64,000 bases of DNA from Deltaproteobacteria bacterium (GTDB lineage Bacteria > Myxococcota_A > Polyangia > Polyangiales > JADJMO01). The stretch spans positions 1 through 64,000 of the forward strand of contig JANYDK010000073.1 of assembly GCA_025363655.1 (NCBI GenBank). Reading direction: 5' to 3'. Each line of letters begins with the position of its first letter. Position 1 is the first letter of the stretch. The translations under genes were made by a program, and so were the position numbers. Under the pieces are notes generated by a model. That model was not told the origin of the DNA, ran no database searches, and saw only the letters and a program-made list of their open reading frames with translations. Positions 1,143 through 27,563 of the stretch are shown one piece after another.

Positions 1143-1499
1143 TGGTGGAGGCGGGGGGAGTCGAACCCCCGTCCGAAAGCGTTCCACCTCGGCTTCTACG
1201 TGCGTAGTCGTTGTGTTGATTCGTGATGCGAGACGGCCAACGACAACCTTCTCGCTCCACTACTCCGCACTGCTTCTTGCTTCACCCCGCGCGGCGAGGG
1301 GGTCGGCCAGCCGAATCAGTTGCGCCTTCCGGAGAGCTTCGGCGGGCTCTTCCTTTAGACGGCTATCGCTAGTTTCTTAGGCTGCGAGAGCGTACGCGTT
1401 GTCGTTCGCGTTTGTACGTCCCACGGGTTGGAGAGGTCGTGGGCCCTCTTGCACGCCACCAGAGATGAACGACGCCCCCGTCGAAACCGGAGCGCCCCC
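1143..1499 (-). ncRNA. ssrA: tmRNA (transfer-messenger RNA)
   Basis: tmRNA rescues stalled ribosomes by acting as tRNA-Ala and then as template for a degradation tag. The 5' end GGGGGCG (1499-1493) pairs with CGCCTCC (1153-1147), with one G-U pair, followed by ACCA, so the CCA end is encoded (1145-1143). The hallmark 5' segment CGGTTTCGACGGGGG and the T-arm GGTTCGACTCCCCCC are present. The length is 357 nt in one piece, with no sign of the two-piece permuted form. The tag reading frame is listed separately. The 3' end is the probable attachment site of the adjacent island, which evidently restored the tRNA-like end on insertion. Confidence 0.95.
1377..1409 (-). other. tmRNA tag reading frame (ANDNAYALAA, TAA)
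   Basis: Inside the tmRNA, codons from GCG at 1409-1407 to TAA at 1379-1377 encode ANDNAYALAA. The ALAA end is the usual C-terminal degron for ClpXP-type proteases. Choice of GCG as the resume codon follows the family pattern A-N-D-N. It was not determined experimentally. Confidence 0.85.
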
Positions 1500-9366: not shown

Positions 9367-9687
9367 GCGCGGGACCGTATGTGGCCTTGGCGAACCCGAC
9401 AAGCCGACTTCCGACGGCGTCTCGCGCGTGACTCCGGAGGGCGACATACCGTGCACAGGGCCGCGAACGGGCGGTCACACCCGCCGTTTGGACAGGGCGA
9501 CGGCCCTTTCGGTGAGAATCGACAGGCGCCCGGAATCACCGGGCTTCTGGCCCGGTTGTGCCCCTGTACACGGCATCTGGGGCCGACGTGTCTTCTCCCT
9601 GGACGCATCCGCTCTTCGGCATCAGGATTGCTCTACAGACCTTCGACCGCCTCCGTTCGACCTTCGTCACGCCTTCAGGAGCCCCAG

Positions 9688-10524: not shown

Positions 10525-10580
10525 GCTAGCCCACAGGACTAGCAGTCGCGCCGCGACGCTCGGTCGAGTAGACACGGCGG

Positions 10581-11348: not shown

Positions 11349-13363
11349 CGACTCCCGCGAATTCGGCGCACCGCCCCGTCCAGCTCCTCTCGCGCGAGCT
11401 CGCCGATCAAATCGCTGCCGGCGAGGTGGTCGAGCGTCCGAGCTCGGTGGTGAAGGAGCTGGTCGAGAACGCGCTCGACGCCGGCGCACGGACGATTCGC
11501 GTGGAGATCGAGAACGGCGGCCTCGATCGCATCGTCGTCGTCGACGATGGAGCGGGCATGGACAGCGCCTCGGCGCTCCTTGCCATCGAACGTCACGCGA
11601 CCTCCAAGCTCGCGTCCTTCGACGAGCTCTTCCGTCTCGGAACCTTCGGCTTCCGAGGCGAAGCCCTCCCATCGATCGCTTCGGTCTCGCGCTTCAAGCT
11701 CACCACGCGCAGGCCCGAGGCGCTCTCCGGCACGGAGATTTCGCTCCTCTCGGGGCAGAAGCCGTTCACGCGCGAGGTCGGTGCGCCGCCGGGAACGGCC
11801 ATCGAGGTGGTCGAGCTCTTCTACAACGTGCCGGCGCGTCGCAAGTTCATCAAGTCCGCCGCGACCGAGGCGGGGCACATCGCCGACACCTTGCTCGATC
11901 TCGCGCTCGCCCGCGCCGACGTGTCGATTTCTCTCCTCCGCGACGGGAGGCCGGTGCGGCAGTATCTCCGTGAAGCGACGCGTGCGGGCCGTGCGCGAGA
12001 CGCGCTCTCTCGCTCGCTGAACGACGGCACGCGCCTCGTCACCGAGTTCGTTCACCTCGACGGCGAGCGGCCGGGCGTGCAGGTCGAAGCGTTGCTCTCA
12101 CCGCCGGAGAGAGCGCGCACCGGCGCCAACGGGCTCCATCTCCTCGTCAACGGTCGAGCCGTGCGCGACAGGGCGCTCGCCCGCTCGGTGGCGATGGCCT
12201 ACGGCAGCGTGCTCGATCCTGGTCGCTATCCACTCGGCGTGGTCTACGTCGACGTCGCGCTCGAAGAGGTCGACGTCAACGTCCATCCCCAAAAGGCGGA
12301 GGTTCGCTTCGCGCGCGGACGTGAGCTCTACGACGACGTCTCTCGCGTGCTCGCGGCGGGTCTCGCCGAGACGTTCCGTCGCGCCGGATCGGTGCAAGTC
12401 GAAGACGAGCCGCCGACGCCCGTCACGCCGACGCGTGGTCCGGTCAACCGCGGGCTCGCCGAGCTCTCGGAGGCGATGGGACGGGCGATCCATCCGTTTG
12501 GCGGCGTCCCGCTCACGCGCGCGAAATCCGACACGCCGCACGAGGCCGATCCGTGGGGCATAGGACCGAACGCGCTGCCGATGGAGCCGCCGCGCCGCGA
12601 GCCCGACGATCCGCGCGACTACACGCTGCCGTCGGCGCAGTACATGGTGTTCCCGGCGCGCGGCGAACCGAGCCCAGCGGCGCAAGCGACAGCAGCAGCA
12701 GCCGCAGCTGACGCCGAAGAAGCCGAGAAGGAGACCACCCTCGTCAGCACGCGCTCGCCGCAGACGGTCGAGACTTCGAAGGGTCCGTACAGTCAGCTGC
12801 GCTTCCTCTCTCAGGTGCGCGCGACGTATCTCGTCTGCGAAGGCACCGACGGCATTTACGTGCTCGATCAGCACGCGGCCGCCGAGCGCGTGAACTTCCA
12901 CAAGCTCCGCACCTCGTACGCCAAGCGCTCGATTCACCGGCAGCAGCTCCTCATTGCCGAGGTGCTCGAGGTCTCCAGCGCCGAGTCGGTGCTCGTCGAC
13001 GAGCTCCACGACGTCTTCCTCGGCTTCGGGGTCGAGGCCAACGCCATCGGCGACGGACGCGTGGCGGTGATGGCGGTGCCGGCGATCCTCCGCAAGGCCC
13101 GTCCGGCGGCGATTTTGCGTGATCTCCTCGACGAGGTCGAGCGCACCGGCGAGCGCGCCTTCAGCGACGCGACCGATCTCGTGCTCGCGACGATGGCCTG
13201 TCACGGCTCGGTGCGCGCCGGCGATCCGTTGCACGCCGACGAGTGCATCGCACTGCTCCGCGCGCTCGACGACGTCGACTTCGCCGGCTACTGCCCGCAT
13301 GGGCGGCCGATCGTCACCTCGATGAGCTACTCCGAGCTGGAAAAACGCGTCGGTCGACGCTAG
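11345..13363 (+). CDS. mutL: DNA mismatch repair protein MutL
   Basis: MutL couples mismatch recognition by MutS to strand incision. The N-terminal GHKL ATPase is complete: ENALDAGA with catalytic Glu, DDGAGM, GFRGEAL, and the Lys of NVHPQKAEVRF near residue 315. A Pro/Ala-rich linker spans ~345-475. The C-terminal dimerisation and endonuclease domain has DQHAAAERVNFH at ~508, ACHGSVRAGDP and CPHGRPI. In the DQHA(X)2E(X)4E metal site the last Glu is His here, while the other motifs are kept. Its 672 residues are normal for the family. mutS is not adjacent. It ends 7 bp from the convergent BtuF-like gene. Confidence 0.95.
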   Translation: MTTPANSAHRPVQLLSRELADQIAAGEVVERPSSVVKELVENALDAGARTIRVEIENGGLDRIVVVDDGAGMDSASALLAIERHATSKLASFDELFRLGTFGFRGEALPSIASVSRFKLTTRRPEALSGTEISLLSGQKPFTREVGAPPGTAIEVVELFYNVPARRKFIKSAATEAGHIADTLLDLALARADVSISLLRDGRPVRQYLREATRAGRARDALSRSLNDGTRLVTEFVHLDGERPGVQVEALLSPPERARTGANGLHLLVNGRAVRDRALARSVAMAYGSVLDPGRYPLGVVYVDVALEEVDVNVHPQKAEVRFARGRELYDDVSRVLAAGLAETFRRAGSVQVEDEPPTPVTPTRGPVNRGLAELSEAMGRAIHPFGGVPLTRAKSDTPHEADPWGIGPNALPMEPPRREPDDPRDYTLPSAQYMVFPARGEPSPAAQATAAAAAADAEEAEKETTLVSTRSPQTVETSKGPYSQLRFLSQVRATYLVCEGTDGIYVLDQHAAAERVNFHKLRTSYAKRSIHRQQLLIAEVLEVSSAESVLVDELHDVFLGFGVEANAIGDGRVAVMAVPAILRKARPAAILRDLLDEVERTGERAFSDATDLVLATMACHGSVRAGDPLHADECIALLRALDDVDFAGYCPHGRPIVTSMSYSELEKRVGRR

Positions 13364-13370
13364 CAGCCGC

Positions 13371-14252
13371 TCACAGCGCGAGCCCTGGGTGCACGGTGCG
13401 CGCGAGGGTCGCGACGCCGTCGAAGAGGCGTGGCCCTGGGCGGAGGATCGTCTCGTCCTCGAGGACGACGACCTTCTTCTCTCGCACCGCGCGCACCGTC
13501 GACCATGGCTCGTCGAGCGGCGCCGCGGCCGAGCCCATTTCGGCGCGCAAGATCACGTCCGGATCGAGCGCGATGACGTTCTCGAGCGAGAGCGTCGGGT
13601 AGCGCCCCCCGCTCTGCACGACGTTGGTCGCGCCGGCGAGCGTCAGCATCTCGTCGGGGAAGCTCCCGTTGCCCGCGGCGCTCACCGGCTTCGAGGAGAA
13701 GAGGAGGAGCACGCGCGGCCTTGGGAGGCTGGCGACGGCGCGCGCGATCTGGTCGCGACGCGCTCGCATCGAGGCGACGAGCTGCGCCGCGCCGTCGACG
13801 TGGTCGGTGCGTGCGCCGATGCCTTCGATCATCGTCACGATGTCGTCGAAGCGCTCGGTGTCGGGGAAATACGTGGCGATTCCGTGTTCCTCGAGCGCGC
13901 GCACGAAGCCCGGTCCGAGGGGCCCGCGAGCGCCGACGACGAGGTCGGGTCGCAGCGCGAGCACCGCCTCGAGGTTCGGATCGACGTACCCGCCGACGAT
14001 CGGTAAGGCCAGCGCGGCTTGCGGAAAGTCGCAGTAGCGCGATCGACCAACGACGCGATCACCGGCCCCGACGGCGAAGAGCGTCTCCGTCGTGTTGGCG
14101 GAGATCGAGACCACGCGCTTGGCGACGAGGATGGTGGCGGGCGTCTTGGTCCGACAACCGGCGATCGTCATCGCCATCGTCATCGTCGCGAGCAGCACCA
14201 GCCCCAAGGCGAGGCTGCGCAGCGATGACCAAGACGACCCTCGAGACCGCAC
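13371..14252 (-). CDS. BtuF-like ABC transporter substrate-binding lipoprotein
   Basis: This is a 293-residue periplasmic binding protein of the BtuF/FhuD helical-backbone type, which binds cobalamin, haem or ferric siderophores. The signature is near the mature N-terminus (RVVSISANTTETLFAVGAGD, then RSRYCDFP). The start is GTG at 14252, which gives a signal peptide ending TIAGC, a lipobox, so the protein should be membrane-tethered. The frame is open far upstream but antisense-like there. It follows the stop of the transglutaminase-like lipoprotein gene by 8 bp, so it is the last gene of that operon. No permease or ATPase gene is nearby, so it either serves a transporter encoded elsewhere or has another role. 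Confidence 0.88.
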   Translation of the reverse strand: MRSRGSSWSSLRSLALGLVLLATMTMAMTIAGCRTKTPATILVAKRVVSISANTTETLFAVGAGDRVVGRSRYCDFPQAALALPIVGGYVDPNLEAVLALRPDLVVGARGPLGPGFVRALEEHGIATYFPDTERFDDIVTMIEGIGARTDHVDGAAQLVASMRARRDQIARAVASLPRPRVLLLFSSKPVSAAGNGSFPDEMLTLAGATNVVQSGGRYPTLSLENVIALDPDVILRAEMGSAAAPLDEPWSTVRAVREKKVVVLEDETILRPGPRLFDGVATLARTVHPGLAL

Positions 14253-14260
14253 CGAACTTC

Positions 14261-17200
14261 TCAGGGCTTCTTCGGCACGGCCGGCTTCTTCTCGGTCGGC
14301 TTCTTCTCGCCCGCCGCCTCTTCCTTCGGCGGCCCCGAGGCCGGGAGCACGCGAATCACCGCTTCGAACCCGTCGTCGATCGCCTTCGCCGAGGCGGTGA
14401 ATTTCTCGAACTGCTCGGGCGCGACGACGCCGGTCGGGAGCGAGAAGGCGAGATCTTCGAGGAGGGTGGTGCCATCGAAGCTCGCCTTGCGCGTCGCCTT
14501 CATCGACGTCGACGCGTCGGTGACGTCGATGGCGGGCAGGGGCGTGCTCACCGACGTCCCGCTCGGCAGGTGAATCACCCGATGGAGCGTGTACTGGACG
14601 GCGTCGTGGATGGTGAGCGCAGTCTTGCGTTTGGCGAGCGCCGCGTAGGTACGTCCGAGCGTGGCGGCGCGCCCTCCCGCGTGGAGCGGCGGCGTACCCG
14701 CGATCGCGAAGCGCTTGCCATCGGGGATGAGGAGCGCCGGGTAATCGACCTTGGCGGTGAGCACGACCTGCCAGGTCTCGGCCGAGGCCTTGACGTCGGT
14801 GACGTCGGCGCCGGGGACCCACGCCGAGACGTACTCGCGGAGGAGGTCGTCGCGCTCGTCGCCCGCTTCCTCTTCGAGCACCGACGAGACGTCCTGCGCA
14901 TCGCGCCCGCGGAGGAGAAGCGCGACGGTGCCTTTGGCGTGACCTGCGTCGTCGACCGTCACTTCGATGGTCGCGGTGTCGGGATCTTGATCGACGTTCG
15001 GCGGCACCGGGATGATCGCGCCCGCGGTGTCGATCGCCAGACGACCACGAAGCTCGGGCGACGTGCGGCCCGGAGGCGGCGGATATCCATCGACGTCGAG
15101 ATCGAGCCACACCGGCTTCAGCTCGCCGCCGGCCTTGTCGGCGACCCAGGCCACGAGGAGCGCGTGCGAGAAGCGCCAGACGCGGGCGACCATCTTCGGA
15201 TCGGCCGAGTAGGGCGTTTGCTCGGCCCAGACGACGTCGTTCTTCACGCCGAGCTCGGAGAGCGCGCGATGGATGAGCGCGACGCGCGAGCCTTGGGCGT
15301 CGAGGAGGACGGTGCGCGCGGTGTAGCTCTGCATGCCCCATTCGCCGCCGCCGAGCGGGAGGAACCCGATGCGCGGCAACGTGCGCTTGGCGGCCTTGGA
15401 GAGGCGCGCGAGGAGATCGACCGTCGGCGCGCGATCGCTCCCGGCAGCCGCCGCGACCCACGCCGAGACCTCGAAATTGCGCTCGTCCTCCGACAGCAGT
15501 CCTTCGCGCGCGTCGCGACCGAGCTTGGTCCACGACCACGTCGAGAGACGAAGCGAGACCGACGCGTCGAGGAACGCCTGGCCCTTCTCGCTGCGCCGGA
15601 CGTCGTGATTGGCGACGTTCCACACCAGTGTCTTCTTCTCGGAGCCGGCCGACGCGTCGGTCGGCTTGCCGAGCTCGGCGTGCGACCAGAGCTCGACGGG
15701 CGCGTTCTTCGGCGTCGTCAGCGAGAGGGTCGCGTGCTGCACCGCGGTTCGACCGGGGAGCAGATCGGGCGTGTCGAGATCGAACGTGCCGTCGGGGCGC
15801 GCGACGAACCAACCTTCGGCGACGAGCTCGACGTAGTCGCCGGGCTGGATCTGCGAGAGGTCGGCGCCGGACTGCGCGGCCATGATTCGATCGGGCTCGA
15901 CGACGGAGCCGTCGGCCTTGTAAATGCGGTGGATCGTCTGCGCGATGTAGCCGCGGCCGCCGCTGGTGCTGGCGACGCGCGCGGAGGCGTTGGCGTCGAC
16001 GTCGGTGGTGCCCGAGAGATGGCGCACGTCCCAGACGACGGCGTGGAGGAAGCCGCCTTCGTCGAGCTCGTAGGACTCTTCGTGATCGAGCACCATCGTG
16101 CCGACCTCGGCGTTCTGCTTGCTCGTCTTGTCCTTCGCGATCAGCGCCTTCGTCTTGTTTTCGAAGGGGAGCGCGAGATCGCCACCGACGCTCGTGTCAC
16201 CGGCCGCGCGCCTCGCGGTCACCAGCTCTTGGAGCATGCGCGCGTCGCCGTCGAGCGTGCGAATCTCTTTGCGGAGCCAGTCGATGCCGACCTTGCCGGG
16301 AGGCGCGAGCTCGCTGGCGAGGCGCAGCGGACGATCGCCGAGATCGGCTTTGTCGTAGAGCGCCCGTGCCGCGGCAGCGCCGGAGAGGCGGAGCGTGGCG
16401 TTGATTTCGAATGAGGTGCCGAGCTTCGGCGATGCGTAGAGCGCGCGGAGGCGGCTGAGCTCGCCGAGGGCTCCCTTGTCGTCGCCGACGGCCGTCTTGG
16501 CATACGCGCACTCGAACGAAGAGACGTCCGGGCGAGCCGGCGCGCACTCGGCCTTCATGTGCGCGTCGTCGGTCTCGCGATCGATCTCGCGCTCGAGCCG
16601 ATAGCCGACGAGCGTGCCGGCGAGGACCGGCTTCACGCGTGCAGCGGCCTCGTCTCCGACGCCGTAGATCTCGTCGCCGAGGATGGAGAGGAAGGCGTCG
16701 ACCAGCGGATCGACCGAGGTGCCCTTCTTCTGCGCCTCTTCGCGACGTTTCTTGATGTCGGAGATCGCTTCGACCTCGCCGGCACCGCCGCGACGCTGCA
16801 GCGCCACGACCTGGGCGTGACCGATGATCGCTTCCCACGACGTCGGCCAACCTTCGAGCGCGGCGTCGAACGCGGCGCGATAGCGCTCGAGGCGCCGAAA
16901 TTCAGGCAGATCGTGGGCAAACCGAAGCGTGCGCGTCCAGACCAGGGCAGCCGCCGGCGGCGCCTTGGTCTTGCCGTCTTTCGAGTGCGCGACCTCGGCG
17001 ATGACCGCTTCGGCGCGCTTCGAATCGCCGCTCGCGAGGAGGCCGAGGGCGAGGGTGGTGCGCGCGGCGGCCGAGGTCGGCGTCGCTGCCGCGGGCTCGG
17101 GAGCGACCTTGCCGATCTTGGTCGCCGGGGGTGCGCCGGTGCCGGCCTTCGCCGCGAGCGGCAGACCGTCCTCGGAGAGCGCGTAGATGGCGATCGACTC

Positions 17201-18154
17201 CGGCGCATAGGCGCCGAGCTTGACGACGAGGCGAACGGTGCCTGCTTCCTGCACCTCGACCTTGCCGAAGCGGAGCATGCGCGTGCCGATTTCGCCGTAC
17301 GCCAGCGAGACCGCTGGTTTGCCGGCGACCAGCAGCTTGCCGGGTAGCTGGGTCTCGAGCCCGACGGAGATCGTCTGCGCGTCGGGCACCTCGACGTCGA
17401 CGACGACGTAGCGCAACCCGCCGGTCACCGCGGTGCCGGTGGTGACGAGCGAGCAGCCGTGTCCGATCGAGGTGGTCGGCGCGGTACCGAGGGCGAACGT
17501 CGGCGAACCGGCATTTTTCGGGGGTGGATACGATCCTGCGAGCGCGCCGCCATCGACCGGGCCGACGTCGTCGAGCGCGCCGAGGGACGGTCCGACGAAG
17601 GGACCGACCACCGTCGCTTCGGTCGCGCAACCGCTCGCTTGGATGCCGGCGGCCATCCCTGCGACGTCGCCTCGAATGGCGGCGAAATGCATCTTCGCGG
17701 TGGCGGCGGCGACGTGGATCATCGGATCGCGACGTGCGTCGGTGCCGAGCGTGCTCTCGAGGACCTCCATCGCACGACGTTCGCCGTCGACCACGCGTGC
17801 CGCGAGCCCGATGTCGTCTCCCAGCTCTTCCAGACCGACGACCTCGCGTCCGGCGAGCGCGTCGATGGCGGCGAGCGAGGCTTCGCGCGCGAGCGGCGTA
17901 CCGCGGAGCTCACGGGTGTCTTCGAGCACCTTGATCCAGGCGTTCATCGCCTCGGTCGCGGGCTTCGTCGCCTCGGCCTCGAAGGCCTTCATCGTCTCGT
18001 CGGCGATCGCCTCGGGGTTGCCGGCGTGCGGACCTTCCGGCCCCTTCGCCGGACCGCAGGCGAGCCCGACGGTGAGCGGCAACACGAACAGCGCCAGCGG
18101 TGACAAGCGAGACAGTTTGGAAAAACGCTTCCAGTGCTTCATGCGCGTGCTCAT
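14261..18154 (-). CDS. DUF3857/transglutaminase-like lipoprotein lacking the catalytic Cys
   Basis: This 1297-residue exported protein is a paralogue of the gene just upstream. The start is ATG at 18154 (MSTRMKHWKRF), giving a lipoprotein signal ending GLAC. The first ~600 residues are helical and TPR-like. A DUF3857-type beta domain follows (VLDHEESYELDEGGFLHAVV), then a transglutaminase-like fold. Where the paralogue has GDCDDKA, this one has LDAQGSR (near residue 950), so the nucleophilic Cys is missing. The His (FSHALLV) and Asp (VWLDLDVD) positions are kept. It is therefore probably a pseudoenzyme, acting as scaffold or binding partner. It begins 2 bp after the upstream stop and is clearly co-translated. 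Confidence 0.8.
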   Translation of the reverse strand: MSTRMKHWKRFSKLSRLSPLALFVLPLTVGLACGPAKGPEGPHAGNPEAIADETMKAFEAEATKPATEAMNAWIKVLEDTRELRGTPLAREASLAAIDALAGREVVGLEELGDDIGLAARVVDGERRAMEVLESTLGTDARRDPMIHVAAATAKMHFAAIRGDVAGMAAGIQASGCATEATVVGPFVGPSLGALDDVGPVDGGALAGSYPPPKNAGSPTFALGTAPTTSIGHGCSLVTTGTAVTGGLRYVVVDVEVPDAQTISVGLETQLPGKLLVAGKPAVSLAYGEIGTRMLRFGKVEVQEAGTVRLVVKLGAYAPESIAIYALSEDGLPLAAKAGTGAPPATKIGKVAPEPAAATPTSAAARTTLALGLLASGDSKRAEAVIAEVAHSKDGKTKAPPAAALVWTRTLRFAHDLPEFRRLERYRAAFDAALEGWPTSWEAIIGHAQVVALQRRGGAGEVEAISDIKKRREEAQKKGTSVDPLVDAFLSILGDEIYGVGDEAAARVKPVLAGTLVGYRLEREIDRETDDAHMKAECAPARPDVSSFECAYAKTAVGDDKGALGELSRLRALYASPKLGTSFEINATLRLSGAAAARALYDKADLGDRPLRLASELAPPGKVGIDWLRKEIRTLDGDARMLQELVTARRAAGDTSVGGDLALPFENKTKALIAKDKTSKQNAEVGTMVLDHEESYELDEGGFLHAVVWDVRHLSGTTDVDANASARVASTSGGRGYIAQTIHRIYKADGSVVEPDRIMAAQSGADLSQIQPGDYVELVAEGWFVARPDGTFDLDTPDLLPGRTAVQHATLSLTTPKNAPVELWSHAELGKPTDASAGSEKKTLVWNVANHDVRRSEKGQAFLDASVSLRLSTWSWTKLGRDAREGLLSEDERNFEVSAWVAAAAGSDRAPTVDLLARLSKAAKRTLPRIGFLPLGGGEWGMQSYTARTVLLDAQGSRVALIHRALSELGVKNDVVWAEQTPYSADPKMVARVWRFSHALLVAWVADKAGGELKPVWLDLDVDGYPPPPGRTSPELRGRLAIDTAGAIIPVPPNVDQDPDTATIEVTVDDAGHAKGTVALLLRGRDAQDVSSVLEEEAGDERDDLLREYVSAWVPGADVTDVKASAETWQVVLTAKVDYPALLIPDGKRFAIAGTPPLHAGGRAATLGRTYAALAKRKTALTIHDAVQYTLHRVIHLPSGTSVSTPLPAIDVTDASTSMKATRKASFDGTTLLEDLAFSLPTGVVAPEQFEKFTASAKAIDDGFEAVIRVLPASGPPKEEAAGEKKPTEKKPAVPKKP

Positions 18155-18156
18155 GA

Positions 18157-21100
18157 TCAGGACCCCTTCACGAAGCGGATCTCGCGGTTGAAGAGGGCGT
18201 CGACCTTGACGACGAAGGCGCGCCACGCGTCGTACTCCGCGAGCGATATCGTCGACTGATCGAGCGAGAAGACCCGCTTGACGATGATTTGGTTCTTCTC
18301 GCCGCGCTCGATGACGAGGCTGGCCTTGCCGTACTTTCCGCCGTTCACTTCGCCGCCGATGTTGAGCTCGGCGACTTTGTACCCGGGAGGCGGATCGAAG
18401 ACGATCTTCACCACGTCCATCGAAGGCGCCATGTGCGGCGGCAGGACCACCGGCGTCACCCGCTTGGTGAGCGGCGCCAGCGACGCAGTCGTCGGGATGC
18501 CGTAGTGGAGGCCGAGCACGAGGTCGGTGCCTTCCTTGCGGCCGAGCCCCGCGCTCTTGGCGTTGAACTTGAGGGTGGCCTTTCCGTCCTTCAGCTCACC
18601 CTTGAAGGCGATGCCCTGCGGCACGACCTCCAGCTGCGGGAGCGCGGCGACGGCGTGGTACTTCTCGAGCCACGTCGCCGACTCGGTCTGCACGCCGGTC
18701 GCATCCTTCGGATCGGCCGTTTTTCCGGCCAGCGAAGTGCGCAGCCAGAAGGCCGAGTCGCCCGAGTGGAGCTCGTCGATGGTGATGGCGGCCGAGCCGT
18801 CTTCCTTGATCGTAAAGGACCACGTGCCGTTCTGGCCGTGCTCTTCCGGCGAGCTGTTCGGCAACGTCACGATCGGCGTGGTGCCGCCGAAGACGACGCG
18901 AATCGCCGCCGCGCGTGCGTCCATCGCCGGCAGCGGTCCGAGGCGCGACTCGGGGCTGGTGGCGTCGAGGTAACGATCGGCCTTCTCGCCCTTGCCGTCC
19001 TTGGAGCCGGGGAGGAACGCGATGCCGTGATCGAACAGCGGCGCCACCGCACCCTTGGCGGTGATGACGCTCGGCATGCCGGTGTAGCGCGTCTGCACGA
19101 GGACCTCTTGCGCGTCCTCGATGCCGATCGCCTTCAGCATGGTGATGAGCAGCATCGCCTTGTCGTCGCAGTCGCCCTGCATGCGATCGAGCACGTTTTG
19201 CGGCCGATTCGGCAACCACTGCTCGGCCGAGACGTAGTTCACGTACTTCACCTGATCGGCGATCCAGTTGAAGATGGCGGCCAGCTTTTCGTCGCGCGTC
19301 TTCGCCTTCGCCTTCTCGACGATCTCCTCCGCCTGGCGCTTGATGCGCGGGTCGACGGTGGAGAACGAGCCGACGCCGGCCTTGTACCAAGTGACGAAGT
19401 CGTCCCAGGTCTTGAACTGCGAGCCGATGATCGTCGGATAGATTTCGGTCGCCTTCGGCTGGAAGGGCTCGACCGGCACCGTCATCGGGTTGTTCCAGAC
19501 GTAGCGCTCGACCGAGCGTCCCTTGGCGTCGTTGGCCGTGGTGCGGATGTCGGGCTTGCCAAGCTCTTCGTGAAGCAGCGCGGTGTAGAGCGGGTGCTTG
19601 GCTTGCGAGCGGACGACGACCTCGTTGTAGAGGCAGGGGTGCGTCGCCGGGCCGCCGGCGTAGTCGAGGAAGAAGAACGGCGCCGCGCCGCGATCGCCGA
19701 TCGGCAGCTCGGTGTAGCTGCGCGTGGCGACCTCGACGACGTCGCCGGGTTTGAGATCGGTCCAGCGAATGCCGAGGCCGTCCTCACCTTCGGCGATTTG
19801 CTGCGGCACCGCGGTCGTCCCATCGAGGTGGTGGACGCGCGCGCGCACGACCTCGACGACGTCGCCTTCGGCCGGCACGCCGCGCTCGTCGAGATCGCCT
19901 GCGTCCTTCGGCGCTTTGACGATCTCGCGCGAGTAGTGGATGAGCTGGACCACGCGACCGGCGTCGTCGACGGTGACCACGCGGACCCAATCGAGCTGCC
20001 GATCGAGCACGTCGAGGAGCGGCTCTTTGCCGTCGGGCGTGGGAGCGGGCGCGCCTTTGCGACGCGCGAGGAACGATTTCGGGTCGGGCAGATACGCCTC
20101 GTCGTCGGGGTGGAGCTCACCGAACGCGAGGTCTTCTTCGGCGCGGAGGAAAGGCGAGCCGGGGTCGAGATCGCGCGCGCGTCCGAGCGCTTCCTTGGCG
20201 AGCTCACGCTCTTTGGCGTCGGGCGAGGCGGCGAGCGCTTGCACGAGCTCCGACCAAATCGCCTTCCGGTTCGGCGCCCAACCCGTGGCCATCAAGAGGA
20301 AGCGACGGTGCTCGGCGGCGAGCCCGGCGTTCTTCAGCTCGTCGCCGATCGACTCGATTTCGTCGGCCGAAGCGATGAGACGGAAGCTCGCGATGGTCGC
20401 GGCCTTGAGCGCCTCCGGACCGAGGAGCCCCTTGCTCCGAATGTAGTCGCGCGGTGACTCGCGTGGCCACACCGAGAGCGCCTGCGCGCGCGCCGCGGCG
20501 GCGAGGAGCGGACGCTGGTACATCGAAGAGGCGAGCTGCCGAAGCACGTACGTCGGCGTGCTTTCTTTCTCGGCGTCCCAGATGTTCTTCCAGGCGAGGA
20601 ACGCGTCCTCGGTGTGCCCGAGTTGATCTTGCAGCCGCGCGCGGAGGATCTGCGCGTCGAGATCTTTGGCGGTCGCGAGCTCGGTGGTGGCCACCGTCGA
20701 GGCGGCCCAGTCGGTGTAGTGAGCGTCGAGCCGACCATCGGCGAGCACGCGGCGCGAGAACTTGGCGACGGGCTCGTAGAGCTTGTCGGCGCCGGCGACC
20801 GTGATCGACTTGTTGAGCCAGGTCGTCTCGTTGGCGCGTCCGGGCGCGAGCCAGCCGCTCATCGCCAGCTCGTCGGGGCGCGGATCGCCGTTGACGACGA
20901 CGTCGAGGAAGCCTTGCGCGCGGGGCGAGCGGAGATCGTCGGCGCCACCGATGCGGCGCGCGAGGGCGATCGAAAGCGCGTCGTCGACGCTCAGCTCGTC
21001 TTTGGGAGAAAATGCCAAAGCCTTGGCGAGCGGCGTGGTCAGCGAGGTGAACGTCGGCGGCGTCACCGTCTCGGGGAGCTTTCCGAGATCGTCCCCGAAG

Positions 21101-22266
21101 GTGATGCCTGCCACCGCGTCACCGGTCTCGGTGGTGACCCGCGCGCGCACGCGACCGGCGTCGGCGGAGGTGCCGGCGCAGACCTTGAGCGCGAGGAGGT
21201 GCGGCCCCTTCGAGACCGTCATCTTGGCGGCGATGCGATCGGCGAGCGCGAGGGAGTGCGTCTCCTCGCTCGTCCCCAGCGCCGCGCCGTCGAACATCAC
21301 GCGCAGCGATCCGCTCGCCGCCGCCTGCACCACGATCACCTGATCGTTCGCCAACGTGACGACGCTCGCGAGGTACGTGCAGGCTTCTTTTCGCGGGTAG
21401 ATCAAGACGTCGAGCGGAATGCCGCGCGCGGAGGTGAGCTCGGCCGGCACCGGTCGCCAGGCGTTGTCGTAGGCGCCGTCGTCCCAGCGTTGATCCATCT
21501 GGCGGAAGAGCGCGACCGAGATCGGCCGCGGCTTGCCGTCGTCCTTCGCCGTCGTCTTGGTCTCTTTCCCGTCTTTCGCTTTGCCGTCCGGCTTTGGCGC
21601 TGCGGCACCCACGGGCGGCGGCGCGATCTCGGGCCCCTCGGCGGTGGTGATGCCGGTGCCGCTCGTGTCCTTGAAGGGACCGACGATGCGGAAGGCGCTG
21701 ACGACGCCGAGCTTCGCTTCTTCCGGACGACCGGCTGCGGTGCCGACATCGGGCGCGATCGAACGCGCGATCGTCGCCGCCTCGACGCCGAGGAACTTCG
21801 AGTTCTTGTTCGCCGAGAGGGCGGTCGCGATGCGCAGGAGCGCCTTCTGTGCGAGCCCCGCGTGGGCATCGTCGGCGAGCTGCGGGATCGCCATGATCGC
21901 GCCGATGGCAGCGCGTCCGCCGGCCAGCCCTTCGCGAATGGCGCGCTTCTCGAGCTGCGAGATCACCTCGTCGGTGGTGGCTGCGACCCAGAGGTCGTCG
22001 GAGCTCACCGGCTTCTGCGACTTCGCGAGCTTGCCCTTCGGCGCAGGGGCACCGACGTCCTTCGCGTCCATCCCGGCTTTCCCGTCTTTCGCTTTCGGCG
22101 GGCCGCCCGGGAGCGGTTTCGGCGCCGCGGATCCAGCGGGCGGACCTTTCGGTTGCTGCGCATCGGCGTCGCGGCCGGCGAGCGCCGTGACGAGGAGACC
22201 GAGGCCGACCGAAGCGAGGAGAGAGCGCGAACGAGGGCGCCGAAGGGCGCGAGGATTCTGCGTCAT
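18157..22266 (-). CDS. Exported DUF3857 / transglutaminase-like protein
   Basis: This 1369-residue protein starts at ATG 22266, followed by a signal peptide (LLASVGLGLLVTALAGRDAD). A GTG at 22293 is possible but lies inside a hairpin. After a Lys/Pro-rich segment and a long helical repeat region comes DUF3857 (~residues 780-930), then a transglutaminase-like domain with an intact triad: Cys in QGDCDDKAMLL (near residue 1033), His in FDHGIAFLPG, and Asp in RYLDATSP. The C-terminal ~200 residues are a beta domain (FTIKEDGSAAITIDELHSGD). DUF3857-transglutaminase proteins are periplasmic or outer-membrane proteins of mostly unknown substrate. They may cleave or crosslink peptides. The gene sits mid-operon between the propeller and paralogue genes. 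Confidence 0.85.
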   Translation of the reverse strand: MTQNPRALRRPRSRSLLASVGLGLLVTALAGRDADAQQPKGPPAGSAAPKPLPGGPPKAKDGKAGMDAKDVGAPAPKGKLAKSQKPVSSDDLWVAATTDEVISQLEKRAIREGLAGGRAAIGAIMAIPQLADDAHAGLAQKALLRIATALSANKNSKFLGVEAATIARSIAPDVGTAAGRPEEAKLGVVSAFRIVGPFKDTSGTGITTAEGPEIAPPPVGAAAPKPDGKAKDGKETKTTAKDDGKPRPISVALFRQMDQRWDDGAYDNAWRPVPAELTSARGIPLDVLIYPRKEACTYLASVVTLANDQVIVVQAAASGSLRVMFDGAALGTSEETHSLALADRIAAKMTVSKGPHLLALKVCAGTSADAGRVRARVTTETGDAVAGITFGDDLGKLPETVTPPTFTSLTTPLAKALAFSPKDELSVDDALSIALARRIGGADDLRSPRAQGFLDVVVNGDPRPDELAMSGWLAPGRANETTWLNKSITVAGADKLYEPVAKFSRRVLADGRLDAHYTDWAASTVATTELATAKDLDAQILRARLQDQLGHTEDAFLAWKNIWDAEKESTPTYVLRQLASSMYQRPLLAAAARAQALSVWPRESPRDYIRSKGLLGPEALKAATIASFRLIASADEIESIGDELKNAGLAAEHRRFLLMATGWAPNRKAIWSELVQALAASPDAKERELAKEALGRARDLDPGSPFLRAEEDLAFGELHPDDEAYLPDPKSFLARRKGAPAPTPDGKEPLLDVLDRQLDWVRVVTVDDAGRVVQLIHYSREIVKAPKDAGDLDERGVPAEGDVVEVVRARVHHLDGTTAVPQQIAEGEDGLGIRWTDLKPGDVVEVATRSYTELPIGDRGAAPFFFLDYAGGPATHPCLYNEVVVRSQAKHPLYTALLHEELGKPDIRTTANDAKGRSVERYVWNNPMTVPVEPFQPKATEIYPTIIGSQFKTWDDFVTWYKAGVGSFSTVDPRIKRQAEEIVEKAKAKTRDEKLAAIFNWIADQVKYVNYVSAEQWLPNRPQNVLDRMQGDCDDKAMLLITMLKAIGIEDAQEVLVQTRYTGMPSVITAKGAVAPLFDHGIAFLPGSKDGKGEKADRYLDATSPESRLGPLPAMDARAAAIRVVFGGTTPIVTLPNSSPEEHGQNGTWSFTIKEDGSAAITIDELHSGDSAFWLRTSLAGKTADPKDATGVQTESATWLEKYHAVAALPQLEVVPQGIAFKGELKDGKATLKFNAKSAGLGRKEGTDLVLGLHYGIPTTASLAPLTKRVTPVVLPPHMAPSMDVVKIVFDPPPGYKVAELNIGGEVNGGKYGKASLVIERGEKNQIIVKRVFSLDQSTISLAEYDAWRAFVVKVDALFNREIRFVKGS

Positions 22267-22281
22267 CACTCGCCGCACTAA

Positions 22282-22297
22282 CCCGGTTTTCACCGGG
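22282..22297. promoter_or_regulatory. Small hairpin in the leader of the transglutaminase gene
   Basis: CCCGGT-TTTC-ACCGGG is a perfect 6-bp stem with a 4-nt loop in the 73-bp gap between the propeller gene and the transglutaminase ATG. The alternative GTG start at 22293 falls inside it. It may be a weak intercistronic attenuator or mRNA-stability element. This is inference. Confidence 0.35.
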
Positions 22298-22339
22298 CGT
22301 ACGCGGCAAAATCTTCGACGACGGAGCGAAACGGAAGCC

Positions 22340-24568
22340 TTACTTGCCTTCGACTTCCCTCGTCACCGAGTTGCCTGCTGCGTCATAGGCGCGAAGCCCG
22401 ATGACGTGACTTCCGGTCAGCCCGAGCGGGACGTCGACCGTCTCGAGCGCGTCGTCGAGGATGCCGTCGGTCGAGGTGATGACGCGCCAAGGAGCCTTGC
22501 CGTCGATCTCGACCTCGAGCCGCACGATCGGCCCCACGCCATCGGCGATCTCCGCCTGCAGCTTCCCACCATTGAGCGCCATCTTGCGGATGACCGGCGG
22601 CGTGTTGTCGACGACGAAGGGTGCGCTGTCGAGCGCGTGCTTGAGGGCGGTGTTGATCGGGTTGGCGACTTCATCGCTCGCTTCGACGCGCACACGGTAC
22701 CAACCTTCGGCGAGCGCCTCGGTCGACCACGAGTACTCGGTCGCCGAGATCGGCTCGTCGTCCTTGGTCAGCGCGCGCCACACCGTCGACTCTTCCTTGC
22801 GGAACCAGAGGCGATAGCGGAGCGCGTCGCTGTCGGGGTTCTCGACCTTCCATGTCAGCTTGATGGCCGACTCTTTCTTCGGCACGTCGGTGCCCGACGA
22901 GGGAATGCCGCTCGGGAGCGAGCCCTTCGCCGGCACGCCGACCTCGGTGACGATCGCGCGCAGGTTGTCGGTGACGAACGCGAGCGAGATGCCGTGAAGG
23001 ACGGTGGGAAAACCCTTCCAACGCGCCTTGATTTGCACGAAACGACCGGAGGGCGAGGCGACCTTGCCGCCGGCGGCGAGTCCGGTCCACGCGCTCCACG
23101 TCTCGTCGGGGACAGAGGTCTCTCCGCTGCGCGTCTCGAGATCGAGCGGTCCGTCGGCGCGCGCGGCGAGCTTGCCCCAGTGCGCTTTGAGACCCGCGTC
23201 GAGCGTTTTGCTGGTCCACGAAGCGTCGCCACCACCGATGCCGGTGACGCGATGGAACGCGCCGCCGTCACCTGCCGCGAACCAACTTCCCTTGCCGCCC
23301 GCGACGACGCCGATGGCGCCGATCTGCCTGGATTCAGCCTTGGCGACGACCGAAGAGACGTGCGTCTCGTCGACGGCGACGACCTTTCCTTCGTTGGCGA
23401 GACCGATGTACGCCACCGGTTTGCCCGCCTTCGGAGCGGGCTCGGTGGCGAGCGCGAAGAACGGCGTCGACGAATCGGCGTACAGCTTCTCGGGTTTGCC
23501 GCCGGTGCCATCGCCCGCGAGGCCGGAGATCTTCCAGAGCTCGCCCTTGCCCTTGCTGCTCTTCGGCGCATCGGAGCTCGCCCCCGGCTGCTTGGTGCTG
23601 GGGAGCTTTCCTTTGCTCGCGTCCGGGAGCGATGGGTAGTCGTTCACGATGCAGTAGAGAGTATCGGCGCTCGTGCTCGCGCCAGCAGCCTTCACCGGCG
23701 CAGCGGGCGGCTTTGCTTTCGGATCCTTCGGCTTCGCCACTGGCGCCTCGACGCCGTTCGACATCGCGCCGCCGAACTCGCACGATCGTACGTAATTTCC
23801 AGCAAAATCCATGACCACAGCGGCCTTGCCGGGTGCGGAGATGGCGAGCAGCAGACCCTTGCTCGAAGTGCCCGCGTAGAGCGTGCCCGTCGGTCCGACC
23901 GTGAGGCTGGTGACGTGCGTGTCGTCGACGGTGTGGAAGAGCTGCGACTTCCCCGCGGCATCGATGCGATAGATTTTTCCGTCGGGTCCGGTGCCGGCGA
24001 AGAGCTCGTTGCGCTTGGCGTCGTAGGCGAGCGCCCAGACGTGATCGCTCGGGAGCTTGCTCCACGCCTTCGGCTTCTGCGCGGCGGTGGCGCTCGGGTT
24101 GGTGCCGACCGCGGCGCCAGGATCGACCAGGTAGATTTCGCCGTCGGGGTAGGTGCCGGCGTAGATCTTCCCGCCTGGACCTTTGACGAGCGAGGTCACC
24201 GCCATCGCGGTCGGGATCTCGGCGACGACCGACTCCTTGCCTTGCGCGTCGATCTTGAGGACGCGTGCGTCGGGCCCGACGCCGAGGAGCACGTCGGCGC
24301 CGTCGCTGATGCCGGCCCACACGCTCGTGCCTTTGAGGAGCGTCGTGCGGCTGGTCGACCAACCGGCGACGACCTCGCCGTTGGAGGTGATGGCCGTGCC
24401 CTGCTGCTCGCCGCCGCCCAGCTTGTCGGCGGTGTCGAGCTCGAAGGTGCGCGTGCCGACCGCCTTGGCGATGTGGGTGTCGCGCGTGGTGATCGCGAAA
24501 CCGGTGGCGACGCCGAGCAGAGCGAAGACGATGACCGAAGCGCGTGACCGAACCGAGCGCATTCCCAT
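22340..24568 (-). CDS. Exported beta-propeller protein with FN3/Ig-like C-terminus
   Basis: This 742-residue protein has an N-terminal hydrophobic signal (VIVFALLGVATGFAI). Repeats with the pattern G-P-x-G-x-[IL]-Y-A-G-T (GPGGKIYAGTYPDGEIYLVD, GTGPDGKIYRID, GPTGTLYAGTSSKG) mark a beta propeller covering roughly residues 40-430. The C-terminal third has a fibronectin-III-like domain (KLTWKVENPDSDALRYRLWF) and a final Ig-like domain (VVDNTPPVIRKM). The fold points to a periplasmic or surface protein-protein interaction platform, and no enzyme motif is seen. It lies 62 bp downstream of the S55 peptidase gene and upstream of the transglutaminase genes, all on one strand. Confidence 0.8.
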   Translation of the reverse strand: MGMRSVRSRASVIVFALLGVATGFAITTRDTHIAKAVGTRTFELDTADKLGGGEQQGTAITSNGEVVAGWSTSRTTLLKGTSVWAGISDGADVLLGVGPDARVLKIDAQGKESVVAEIPTAMAVTSLVKGPGGKIYAGTYPDGEIYLVDPGAAVGTNPSATAAQKPKAWSKLPSDHVWALAYDAKRNELFAGTGPDGKIYRIDAAGKSQLFHTVDDTHVTSLTVGPTGTLYAGTSSKGLLLAISAPGKAAVVMDFAGNYVRSCEFGGAMSNGVEAPVAKPKDPKAKPPAAPVKAAGASTSADTLYCIVNDYPSLPDASKGKLPSTKQPGASSDAPKSSKGKGELWKISGLAGDGTGGKPEKLYADSSTPFFALATEPAPKAGKPVAYIGLANEGKVVAVDETHVSSVVAKAESRQIGAIGVVAGGKGSWFAAGDGGAFHRVTGIGGGDASWTSKTLDAGLKAHWGKLAARADGPLDLETRSGETSVPDETWSAWTGLAAGGKVASPSGRFVQIKARWKGFPTVLHGISLAFVTDNLRAIVTEVGVPAKGSLPSGIPSSGTDVPKKESAIKLTWKVENPDSDALRYRLWFRKEESTVWRALTKDDEPISATEYSWSTEALAEGWYRVRVEASDEVANPINTALKHALDSAPFVVDNTPPVIRKMALNGGKLQAEIADGVGPIVRLEVEIDGKAPWRVITSTDGILDDALETVDVPLGLTGSHVIGLRAYDAAGNSVTREVEGK

Positions 24569-24630
24569 ACCCTCTCTATGTAGTCTTCACGTGAGGCACT
24601 GCAGGTGACGAATCGAGCTTGTTTCCGCGG

Positions 24631-26634
24631 CTACTTCTGCGCGGCTTTGACGGTGACGCGGAGCCGCGAGCTGCCATCGGTGTAGGCAGCGACATCGACC
24701 GCCTTGCGCACCATCGGCTGGAACGACTCGGGGATGGAGGTCGTGGTGTTGGCCTTCATCGTGTCGACGGCGAAGGGCGTGATCTTGGAGGCGACCTTGC
24801 CGTTCATCGCCAGGCCCGCCTCGGGATAGCGGTACTGGACCACCCACGCCTTCGGCGACAGCGACGGCGCCGCGAGGTTGTGGATGAGCTGGTCGAGGTT
24901 CTCGGGCGACGCGGTGTCGGGGTAGACCTGCCAGCCGGGGACGATCTCGAGGTCGACGTCTTTGCCGGCGAGGATCGGATCGATCGGCACGCTGACGATG
25001 ACCGACTTCTCTTCGCCGAAGTACGGCTTGTAGGTGAGCTTGATGCGCGCGGCCTGGCCCGGTTCGACGATGGTCTCCATCAGCTCGGCCGAGCGGAGGC
25101 GCACTGCGTCGCGCTTCCAGTCGACCTCGAGCTTGGCGGTGACGCCCTCGACTTGCACCTCTTCCCAAGGGTTGTTCATCAGCTCGCCGAGCGCGAAGCC
25201 GGCGCGCGACATGAAGAACGCTCCCTGCGGCACGCCCGAGGCAGAGACGCCGAAGTCGTCGACGGCGATGGTGCCATGGCCCTTGATCTTGATCGTCGAG
25301 GAGAGCGTCCAGCTGGCGTCCTTGCGATCGTTGATCGCGCTGCCGACCGCGTCGGCGAAGGCGAACGCGGTCCACATCGGCGACATGAACTTGTCGTGGA
25401 TGACCTCCATCGACCAGTTCTTCTTCGGCGCCGTCGGATCGCCGAGGAGGTCGATGGTCATCGGGATCATCGGGGCGACGACGTCTTCGTCGACGACGAT
25501 GCACGCCTCGCGATCTTGCGTCAGCGTGCCGAGGTTGCGCACCGGCTCGCCGATCTTGAACGAGCGCTGATCGCTCGACAAAACCCAGAGAATTTTCGCG
25601 ATCGCGGTCGGGAGGTGGCTGGCGCCCATCTCCATCATCGGGTGACCGAAGCCGACCAGCTTCTTGCCGATGACGTGGGTGACGGTGCCAGTGGCCTGCG
25701 CCGCCGAGTCGCCGCGCATGAGCTCGACCGCGATGGCGCCGCCGTCGACGTAGTGCTCGGGAGCGCCCTTGGCGGTGGCCGCGATTCCGGCGCCGCCACC
25801 TTGGAGGGGAACGAGGCCGAGCGGAGCGATCGCCAGGGCGAGCTCTTTCACCGTGCGATCGGAGAGGCCGCCGACGATGAGCGGAGTCTCGACCATCTGC
25901 GGCGCGGTGACGCCCGCGAGCCCAGGAGGTGCCGAGCGCGCGGCGATTTGCTTGACGTGATCTTGCAGCGAGTAGGTGCCCGGATCGCCGAACCAGGCCG
26001 TCTTGGCGCCGCCGCTCTTGCCGTTGGCGTCGGCGTCGTCGAGCGAGCCCGTCTTCGCTTTCGGCGCCGGCGGTTTGGTGGCCGGGCCGATCGGCGACTT
26101 GCCGCTGCTGGGAAAGAGGAGCGGCGAGAGCGGACGCCCCATCTCGGCGACCATGTTGGCGATCGGCGTGACGCCGGCGACGGGCTCGTTGCCGAAGCTC
26201 CAACCGTACGCATACGCGCCGGCGAGCTTGGCCGGGCCCGACCCGTCGTTCAGGAAAATGGGGCTGCCGCTCATGCCGGCCACGACCTTCACCTTCTCGA
26301 GGCGCGGGTGGATCGTCTTCACCAAGATCAGATCTTGGTTGGGCCTGAATTTGTGGAGGACGTCGATGACCTCGACGTCGAACTTCTCGGGCTCGGTGCC
26401 GCTGAAGACGGTGAGCCCGTAGCCCTTCATGCCCGGCTTGATCGAGCCGACGGCGATGGTCGGCGTGTCTGCCGTCGCTGGCTTGGGCGCGAAGGCGACG
26501 AGCGTGCCGAGGCCGGCGAGCAGGCCGAGGGTGAGACCGAAGAGAGGATGGGCGAGCGCACGCGGCGGTCGAATCGAAATCGGCACGGGTGGAAAGCCTC
26601 GCACGCTTTGTTGTCCTAGAGAAGCGTCGTGCAT
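24631..26634 (-). CDS. SpoIVB-type (family S55) peptidase
   Basis: This is a 667-residue exported serine peptidase. The family signature is clear: SIKPGMKGYGLTVFSGTEPE, then VEVIDVL, and the catalytic-Ser motif GMSGSPIF (near residues 119-125), followed by GAYAYGWSFG. In Bacillus the S55 enzyme SpoIVB cleaves SpoIVFA in sporulation signalling. In myxobacteria S55 proteins are longer and their targets are unknown. Hydrophobic residues (LFGLTLGLLAGLGTLVAF) form a signal peptide or anchor. I took ATG at 26634. The frame is open to 26682 with an ATG-less leader. The beta-rich C-terminal ~400 residues have no family that I can name. It is the first gene of the five-gene cluster and likely sets its theme: controlled proteolysis in the envelope. 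Confidence 0.85.
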   Translation of the reverse strand: MHDASLGQQSVRGFPPVPISIRPPRALAHPLFGLTLGLLAGLGTLVAFAPKPATADTPTIAVGSIKPGMKGYGLTVFSGTEPEKFDVEVIDVLHKFRPNQDLILVKTIHPRLEKVKVVAGMSGSPIFLNDGSGPAKLAGAYAYGWSFGNEPVAGVTPIANMVAEMGRPLSPLLFPSSGKSPIGPATKPPAPKAKTGSLDDADANGKSGGAKTAWFGDPGTYSLQDHVKQIAARSAPPGLAGVTAPQMVETPLIVGGLSDRTVKELALAIAPLGLVPLQGGGAGIAATAKGAPEHYVDGGAIAVELMRGDSAAQATGTVTHVIGKKLVGFGHPMMEMGASHLPTAIAKILWVLSSDQRSFKIGEPVRNLGTLTQDREACIVVDEDVVAPMIPMTIDLLGDPTAPKKNWSMEVIHDKFMSPMWTAFAFADAVGSAINDRKDASWTLSSTIKIKGHGTIAVDDFGVSASGVPQGAFFMSRAGFALGELMNNPWEEVQVEGVTAKLEVDWKRDAVRLRSAELMETIVEPGQAARIKLTYKPYFGEEKSVIVSVPIDPILAGKDVDLEIVPGWQVYPDTASPENLDQLIHNLAAPSLSPKAWVVQYRYPEAGLAMNGKVASKITPFAVDTMKANTTTSIPESFQPMVRKAVDVAAYTDGSSRLRVTVKAAQK

Positions 26635-26759
26635 CGCCGCGCGCTCTTTGACGAATTGGCAATTTCTGCGGCGGATTCTCACGCCCTAGGACAACGAATG
26701 AAGCTCCCCTGAGCTTTCAGTACCGCTTTCGTTCAGCTCGGCGTGCTACGCCGTGCTTC

Positions 26760-27563
26760 GTGCGTGTGGGACGGCAAATCCTTTATGCCTCGACGATCGC
26801 CGGTGTCGGCCTCGGGGTCCGCTCCGCCCTCGGGAATCCGATGCCGCTGTCCGTGATCGCCGCGTCCAGCGCCGTCTTCTTCGGCGTCGTCGTCGCCGGC
26901 GTCCTCGAGCCACGGCTCGGCATGTACGCCGACGTCGTCTGTCGCGGTGAGCCGGCGACCGGTGAAGAAGTCCCTCGCGTGGCCCTCACCTTCGACGACG
27001 GTCCGAGCGTCGAGCACACGCCGCGCATCCTCGACCTGCTCGACGAAGCCGGCCTCCGCGCGACCTTCTTCGTGCTCGGTCGCAAGCTGACGGGGGAGGG
27101 GGCGCGCATCGTTCGCGATGCGACGTCACGCGGTCATCAAATCGGCTGTCACTCGTTCGCGCACCATCGGCTCTTTTCGCTGCGCAGCGAGGCCTACGTC
27201 CGCGACGACTTGGTCCGCGCGCTCGCCACCATCGAAGAGGTGACCGGCGCGAAAACGACGATTTTCCGGCCGCCGATCGGTCACACCAACCCGACCATCG
27301 CCCGCGTCGCCGACGAGCTCGGGCTCACGCTCGTCGGGTTTTCCGTGCGCTGTCGAGACGGCATGCGCGGGGCGCGCGAAGACGACGTCCGCGATCGCGC
27401 CACGCGCGGCCTGCGTGATGGCGCCATCGTCTTGCTTCACGACGCCGCCGAGCGTGACGACTTCACGCCGATCGCGCCGCGCATCTTGCCGGCTCTCGCG
27501 CTCACGCTGCAGGAGCGACAGTTGGAGGCGGTGACGGTGGGTGAGATGCTCGGGCTCGCCTGA
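26760..27563 (+). CDS. Polysaccharide deacetylase (NodB domain, carbohydrate esterase 4)
   Basis: This is a 267-residue protein. Residues ~20-55 are hydrophobic (IAASSAVFFGVVVAGVL) and probably anchor it in the inner membrane. The NodB domain shows motif 1 TFDDGPS (catalytic base Asp), motif 2 HSFAHH with the metal-binding His pair, motif 3 FRPPIGHTN, and motif 5 VLLHD. It should remove acetyl groups from peptidoglycan or an N-acetylhexosamine polymer, using a divalent metal. The start is GTG at 26760. A second GTG at 26766 is possible. It is divergent from the S55 peptidase gene (about 125 bp between starts), and its 3' end overlaps the convergent transporter gene by 62 bp. Confidence 0.9.
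   Translation: MRVGRQILYASTIAGVGLGVRSALGNPMPLSVIAASSAVFFGVVVAGVLEPRLGMYADVVCRGEPATGEEVPRVALTFDDGPSVEHTPRILDLLDEAGLRATFFVLGRKLTGEGARIVRDATSRGHQIGCHSFAHHRLFSLRSEAYVRDDLVRALATIEEVTGAKTTIFRPPIGHTNPTIARVADELGLTLVGFSVRCRDGMRGAREDDVRDRATRGLRDGAIVLLHDAAERDDFTPIAPRILPALALTLQERQLEAVTVGEMLGLA

Follow-up and report, generated by a model that had tools for sequence, protein, structure and literature searches.

In a 64,000-nucleotide stretch of Polyangiales DNA (positions 1 to 64,000 of contig JANYDK010000073.1, assembly GCA_025363655.1; hereafter the window), a minus-strand gene at 24631-26634 encodes an S55-like peptidase, and the next gene on that strand (22340-24568) encodes a beta-propeller protein. 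As judged from its sequence, the peptidase is a putative permuted relative of the S55 family with a dedicated propeller, departing from the known S55 motif order. The peptidase/propeller pair is common to several distant bacterial groups, in which one gene is almost never found without the other.

Motif order and predicted fold of the peptidase

The peptidase gene opens with ATG, and an alternative GTG start at 26682 is open as well. Its product is predicted to be exported and circularly permuted relative to S55, with a Ser barrel, an inserted alpha/beta region, a His/Asp barrel and an immunoglobulin-like (Ig-like) C-terminal domain. The predicted nucleophile is the Ser in GMSGSP (codon 26269-26271; residue 122 from ATG, 138 from GTG), which aligns with S378 of SpoIVB, the MEROPS S55 peptidase of Bacillus subtilis (PDB 9LNF). 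The predicted catalytic His (codon 25642-25644; residue 331 or 347) aligns with SpoIVB H236, and an invariant Asp, the predicted third member of the triad, lies at His + 43 (codon 25513-25515; residue 374 or 390). GMSGSP occurs in both proteins, as does the SAAxxGTxT...GH motif at the H236 position; two trypsin-like barrels (predicted for the window protein) and export are further likenesses, and SpoIVB is a signalling-type protease. The layouts differ: SpoIVB reads PDZ, His (H236), Ser (S378), whereas the window peptidase shows GMSGSP first and GFGHP about 200 residues later, with the Asp behind the His, an Ig-like C-terminus and a propeller partner. No PDZ domain gave a Pfam match at E <= 1 in the window peptidase, whose alpha/beta insert ahead of the His barrel carries no assignment.

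Profile models catch this protein in part. The Peptidase_S55 match of the window peptidase (E 3.5e-4, 21.1 bits) falls under the gathering score of 25 for PF05580, and the SpoIVB model TIGR02860 scores 24.5 bits against a cut-off of 305, the matched part being the C-terminal one that bears the Ser. Among 282 Myxococcota genomes, 67 contain a match above the PF05580 cut-off. PF05580 is matched by its C-terminal half only, with a profile start of at least 85 in 77 Myxococcota genomes and at least 94 in genomes of the phylum of locus L205 (record title Acidobacteriaceae).

The Ser motif stood ahead of the His motif in 28/30 loci of a first set, the exceptions being L002, in which GGCSGSP is followed by the His motif, and L003, an N-terminally truncated fragment; it did so in all 30 loci of a second set. 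None of 80 named loci, whose record titles span Myxococcota and relatives, Verrucomicrobia, Planctomycetota (including Kuenenia, Jettenia and Scalindua), Acidobacteria and candidate phyla, has a His-type motif ahead of the Ser, and the strict His pattern was found after it in 69. We aligned 127 proteins (the window peptidase with 47 other aligned relatives, plus those from 79 of the 80 loci); some genes are represented twice, having been reached along two routes. All 127 rows have the Ser, the His and the Asp, with a His-Asp spacing of 43 in every one, and a second GMSGSP occurs in none. In L024 and L113, the loose GH matches that precede the Ser motif fall in a non-genic upstream extension of the open frame; 15 of the 127 trimmed proteins have a GH dipeptide N-terminal to the Ser within the protein itself, none of them in the invariant His column. 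GMSGSP is replaced by AMSGSP in three peptidases (L262, L263 and L265), all missed by the Pfam model.

In chymotrypsin, His57 and Asp102 are 45 residues apart, and the spacing of 43 in the permuted peptidases is near this value. Because the Asp is invariant at that distance after the His, a canonical Ser-His-Asp triad is predicted, and we infer that the permuted peptidase uses it. SpoIVB differs here: in our reading of a three-sequence SpoIVB profile alignment, no acid stands at the place matching the invariant Asp. The third catalytic residue of SpoIVB is itself unsettled: one study puts Asp363 about 24 A away from His236 and proposes Thr393 (PMC12502668). The window peptidase is predicted to have the Ser barrel fold of HtrA, DegQ, DegS and other PA-clan S1 proteases, for which PMC3434108 gives a canonical order of His-Asp-Ser, whereas the window peptidase and all other aligned proteins read Ser-His-Asp. 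His N-terminal to Ser, as expected for S55, was found in no assessable relative. Since it departs from both motif orders, we do not file the peptidase as a plain member of either group; the two trypsin-like beta barrels that mark the PA clan are present in the predicted models. In its mode of action, the permuted peptidase probably resembles the serine peptidases of the PA clan.

Each half was compared with SpoIVB by sequence. The Ser half aligned with SpoIVB residues 328-414 at an hhalign probability of 98, a score reached by 0/200 column shuffles. The His half aligned on SpoIVB 214-236, ending exactly at H236; 3/100 shuffles reached its score against a single SpoIVB sequence, and 0/200 column shuffles did so against a three-sequence SpoIVB profile (score 26.8, best shuffle 20.0). 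In the same shuffle test, the negative controls gave 60/200 for the middle part and 13/200 for the C-terminal part. We take the His-half signal, read from these alignments, to be genuine but short.

An AlphaFold2 model built from 48 relatives (residues 62-683 in GTG numbering) reached a predicted local distance difference test score (pLDDT) of 87 and a predicted template modelling score of 0.86; the AlphaFold models predict two trypsin-like barrels, with the Ser barrel leading. By structure comparison (VIA), model residues 13-126 match the C-terminal barrel of SpoIVB (9lnf, 313-426; Z 8.2, 3.6 A over 106 residues, 26% identity), that of DegQ (129-236; Z 9.7, top among the HtrA proteases) and that of Rv3671c (279-386), and residues 465-622 resemble an Ig-like domain (Z about 5). 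The full-model comparison lists nothing for the His half, which is not evidence of absence. Modelled alone (pLDDT 83.8), the His half drew chymotrypsin-fold proteases in 48 of its 50 best rows, at Z 6.2-7.8; the other two were an umbrella-toxin particle chain and MreC. Since the trypsin barrels are alike and the target's C-terminal barrel is the one matched in many rows, this comparison points to the fold but not to which barrel it is. The alignments and models together argue that the peptidase is a SpoIVB/S55 domain in a naturally occurring, circularly permuted form, and the predicted barrel order is well supported.

The propeller partner

The propeller protein has a hydrophobic N-terminal stretch, beta-propeller repeats, a conserved RSGxxxxPDxxW region and an Ig-like C-terminus, and its Pfam matches to propeller and Ig families are weak. 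A phmmer search for a solved relative gave best matches of E 0.0099 and 0.2, which are not meaningful.

In a sample of 56 genomes from the order of the window or nearer, the S55-like peptidase was found in 51 and the propeller in the same 51; in 44 of these the two genes stand side by side on the same strand. Of the seven non-adjacent cases, four are on contigs that are short or broken (G010, G035, G044, G046), and G020 could not be judged. At 71 of the 80 named loci there is a homologue of the window propeller, which in 69 starts 21-358 nt past the peptidase stop. At L142 it lies 2.5 kb on, behind an inserted gene, and at L215 (record titled Chloroflexi; 8920-12807) the two are fused head to tail in a single open frame of 1296 amino acids, the peptidase extending to about residue 604 and the propeller starting from 677. 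The genome of L215 (G317) contains many generic propeller matches (24). When genes at the 80 loci were clustered, S55/propeller was the only cluster present in all; the next, a histidine kinase/response regulator cluster, occurred at 18 loci with scattered offsets, followed by clusters at 16 and 12.

Of the nine named loci without a propeller, L140 and L162 are cut by contig ends and the other seven are complete. All seven genomes with complete unpaired peptidase loci hold a propeller elsewhere, at E 7e-97 or better. Acidobacterial peptidase genes without an adjoining propeller are seen at L205, L206, L210, L213 and L217; directly upstream of the gene at L213, the representative of its cluster, is an opposite-strand predicted gene with a weak VWA match.

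The partnership also held at the level of whole phyla, with propeller E thresholds placed at the wide gap in each match list. Among the 282 Myxococcota genomes, 78 have both genes, 204 have neither and none is discordant; Pfam found S55 in 77 and the propeller was called at E < 1e-50 in 78, and in G040, which has the propeller but no Pfam S55, a protein search found the S55. The 149 genomes of the L205 phylum divide into 138 with both, 10 with neither and one, G324, with the propeller only (S55 by Pfam in 134; propeller at E < 1e-30 in 139, including all 134). In 4 of 5 propeller-only cases, a full Ser-His-Asp peptidase missed by the Pfam model lies just upstream. Among the Myxococcota, coordinates fit adjacency in 46 of 49 genomes outside the 56-genome set; in the exceptions, the pair is 10 kb apart (G294) or on different contigs (G256, G302). 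No match to the permuted peptidase was found in plasmid records. We regard the peptidase-propeller partnership as well supported.

The five-gene cluster and the transglutaminase-like pair

In the window, the pair heads a run of five minus-strand open reading frames, all with coding-like codon composition. Third comes a transglutaminase-like gene (18157-22266; ATG start, GTG at 22293 open too) with an intact Cys-His-Asp (C1042, H1089 and D1110; codons 19168-19170, 19027-19029 and 18964-18966); its product matches Transglut_core at E 2e-9 (38 bits, cut-off 23). The fourth gene (14261-18154), whose ATG lies just below the preceding stop, encodes a second transglutaminase-like protein in which Gln replaces the Cys (codon 15293-15295), with His and Asp retained; it has no Pfam match. 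The last gene (13371-14258) encodes a BtuF-like substrate-binding lipoprotein with a lipobox-like IAGC, recognized by eye, which matches Peripla_BP_2 above its cut-off (E 4e-28) but misses the BtuF NCBIfam cut-off (106.6 bits against 234). A DUF3858 match in the window proteins is below threshold. The gaps are 62 bases, then 73 (46 from the GTG start), then a few at each of the last two junctions, and a hydropathy check, which is not a signal-peptide predictor, found one strongly hydrophobic N-terminal stretch in each product. The single direction, short gaps and export-type N-termini described in the earlier note are thus all present. Within 13000-27000, no sigma-70-type promoter-like site was found, and there are 14 terminator-like sites (8.6 expected, standard deviation 3.2).

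The cluster is flanked by a convergent MutL-like gene (11345-13363, plus strand) and a divergent polysaccharide deacetylase gene (26760-27563, plus strand). Elsewhere, the window contains an ATPase gene (30113-31483, plus strand) that may belong to a secretion or flagellar locus and encodes a C-terminal domain of the type III secretion system EscN type (Pfam E 7e-24), a gene for a large RHS-repeat protein with DUF6531 (32214-36221, minus strand) and a transfer-messenger RNA gene (1143-1499, minus strand) with the tag ANDNAYALAA.

The earlier note read the five genes as one system for processing or crosslinking an envelope protein and named their scattering in relatives as the outcome that would speak against it; scattered is how we found them. 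In the family of the window (f1, five genomes), the S55-propeller pair is joined to the transglutaminase pair, whole or pieced, in three (G000, G002 and G004, the last partially). In G001 the two pairs are on separate contigs with other genes at the junctions; in G003 (91% complete), neither S55 nor propeller was found, and 10 kb upstream of the transglutaminase pair contains neither. In five genomes of family f12 with the transglutaminase pair, that pair and S55-propeller are on different contigs. Neither transglutaminase-like proteins nor a BtuF-like protein occurred in the fetched flanks of any of the 80 named S55 loci, and the BtuF-like gene adjoins the transglutaminase pair in f1 only. 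On these neighbourhood data we reject a single five-gene system. The tight same-strand spacing, the export-type N-termini and the linkage repeated in G002 and partly in G004 speak for all five acting together to process or crosslink an envelope protein; since the linkage is interrupted in G001 and was not observed in G003, the 80 S55 loci have nothing of the pair or BtuF, and the transglutaminase pair stands on its own in other families, we consider this highly improbable. No evidence of crosslinking by the cluster was found. What stood of the earlier interpretation is that peptidase/propeller and transglutaminase/pseudoenzyme are each conserved units; most likely, two conserved modules that are independent of each other, together with a transport-type lipoprotein, have been joined locally in this cluster.

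As a conserved two-gene module, the transglutaminase-like pair is distinct from peptidase/propeller. We inspected 18 regions around transglutaminase-like matches, hand-picked from the 49 genomes that had such matches. Seventeen contain two tandem homologues, and L231 has one plus a fragment. The first gene has Cys-His-Asp in 17/17 plus the window, and the second lacks the Cys in all 18 scored, including the window and L231 (that of L232 is cut off and was not scored). Both His and Asp are kept by the second gene in the lineage of the window only (6/18). Close orthologues of the window pair with a Cys-less partner are confined to families f1 and f12, the partner being present in 10/56 genomes. 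The genome of the window has a further transglutaminase/Cys-less pair at L225 (G000:C53:13000-24500). Transglut_core proteins with flanking regions resembling DUF3857 and DUF3858, among which TgpA of Pseudomonas aeruginosa serves as a comparison, share the transglutaminase-like core and Cys-His-Asp, whereas in the pairs examined the window type always stands in tandem with a Cys-less homologue. This homologue is probably a regulator or scaffold of the transglutaminase-like enzyme. No paper on such a pair was found in the literature searched, with most subscription papers outside its scope.

Proposed function, alternatives and implications

We propose that the peptidase would be exported, have a chymotrypsin-like (PA) fold and act as a serine peptidase in an obligate complex with the secreted beta-propeller/Ig-like protein of the next gene; the propeller would recruit the substrate or gate the active site, and the outcome would be limited cleavage of envelope proteins. 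Taken with the local joining of two modules plus a lipoprotein, this is the account that we somewhat favour. The motif order, the invariance of Ser, His and Asp, the predicted fold, the adjacency, one fusion and the near-perfect co-occurrence, even where the genes are unlinked, support it; proteolytic activity, mutual binding, the envelope compartment and a role of the propeller with substrates we infer.

Several findings weigh against a permuted peptidase with an obligate partner. The kinship of the His half to SpoIVB comes down to about 21 aligned residues plus the fold; its VIA Z scores are below 8, many rows superposing on the C-terminal barrel of the targets; the SpoIVB NCBIfam model was touched by 1/48 His halves, at E 0.03 and amid similar chance matches; and Foldseek found nothing at E <= 0.001. 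On the side of the pair, G017 and G041 have the two genes truly separated on long contigs, and the co-occurrence counts are not phylogenetically independent. At L245 (G017) and L244 (G041), another gene lies downstream of the peptidase and the propeller is on another long contig. The weak sequence signal and low Z of the His half would suit an N-terminal half that alone is S55-related, joined to an unrelated barrel with a non-catalytic His; since His and Asp are invariant in 127/127 at fixed spacing, the best alignment lands exactly on H236 and the half is predicted to fold trypsin-like, such an absence of permutation is improbable. A non-proteolytic envelope chaperone or scaffold retaining the protease fold is quite improbable given the invariance of the predicted triad, which extends to four extra S55 proteins missed by Pfam upstream of the propeller.

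The main alternatives to limited envelope cleavage are signalling and propeller maturation. The Ser half is homologous to SpoIVB, a signalling protease (PMC12502668), so that the peptidase might act as a SpoIVB/DegS-like site-1 protease that cuts a membrane-anchored regulator, the propeller serving as sensor or inhibitor in the manner of BofC or RseB. Across phyla, however, no conserved neighbour but the propeller was found, and the eight recurring neighbours inspected with Pfam include no site-2 protease, sigma factor or anti-sigma factor; we hold signalling to be unlikely, though a serious contender. Alternatively, the peptidase could be a dedicated maturation protease with the propeller/Ig protein as the substrate that it cleaves and sets free. 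A dedicated adjoining partner would fit, as would the single head-to-tail fusion with its long, possibly cleavable linker (residues ~604-677), but the propeller has its own export-type N-terminus, and, judged by eye, the alignment shows no evident linear cleavage motif that is conserved outside the folded regions, which leaves maturation rather unlikely.

For limited envelope cleavage by the permuted peptidase, an outer-membrane setting may be suggested by Vpar_0521 of Veillonella parvula, a fitting lead by analogy. According to PMC5491611, Vpar_0521 is a SpoIVB-domain protein among the outer-membrane proteins of this non-sporulating diderm, conserved in diderm Firmicutes and with a role to be determined; it has an N-terminal SpoIVB domain plus DUF1090. 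PMC8841776 describes wide detection of SpoIVB peptidase (S55) among acidobacteria, in agreement with the 134/149 Pfam count in the L205 phylum. No paper on a permuted S55 was found in literature on S55/SpoIVB, circular permutation and propellers, a search that left most subscription papers outside.

The presence of the pair in 138/149 genomes of the L205 phylum suggests a core envelope function, for which no role was described in the literature found. Proteins of non-spore-formers labelled 'SpoIVB peptidase' have, where examined, their protease halves reversed and a specific propeller partner. We see an evenly balanced case for a wider reading in which this permutation of the chymotrypsin fold would define a large family of peptidases in non-sporulating bacteria that, with its obligate propeller, would form a two-protein envelope machine in nearly all genomes of some phyla; the family would have kept the canonical Asp that SpoIVB lost, and SpoIVB would be its sporulation offshoot. 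The transglutaminase enzyme/pseudoenzyme pair is a second, smaller lead. The peptidase would be a rare example of the best-studied protease fold being permuted in nature, and the pair offers a testable partner and a testable third catalytic residue.

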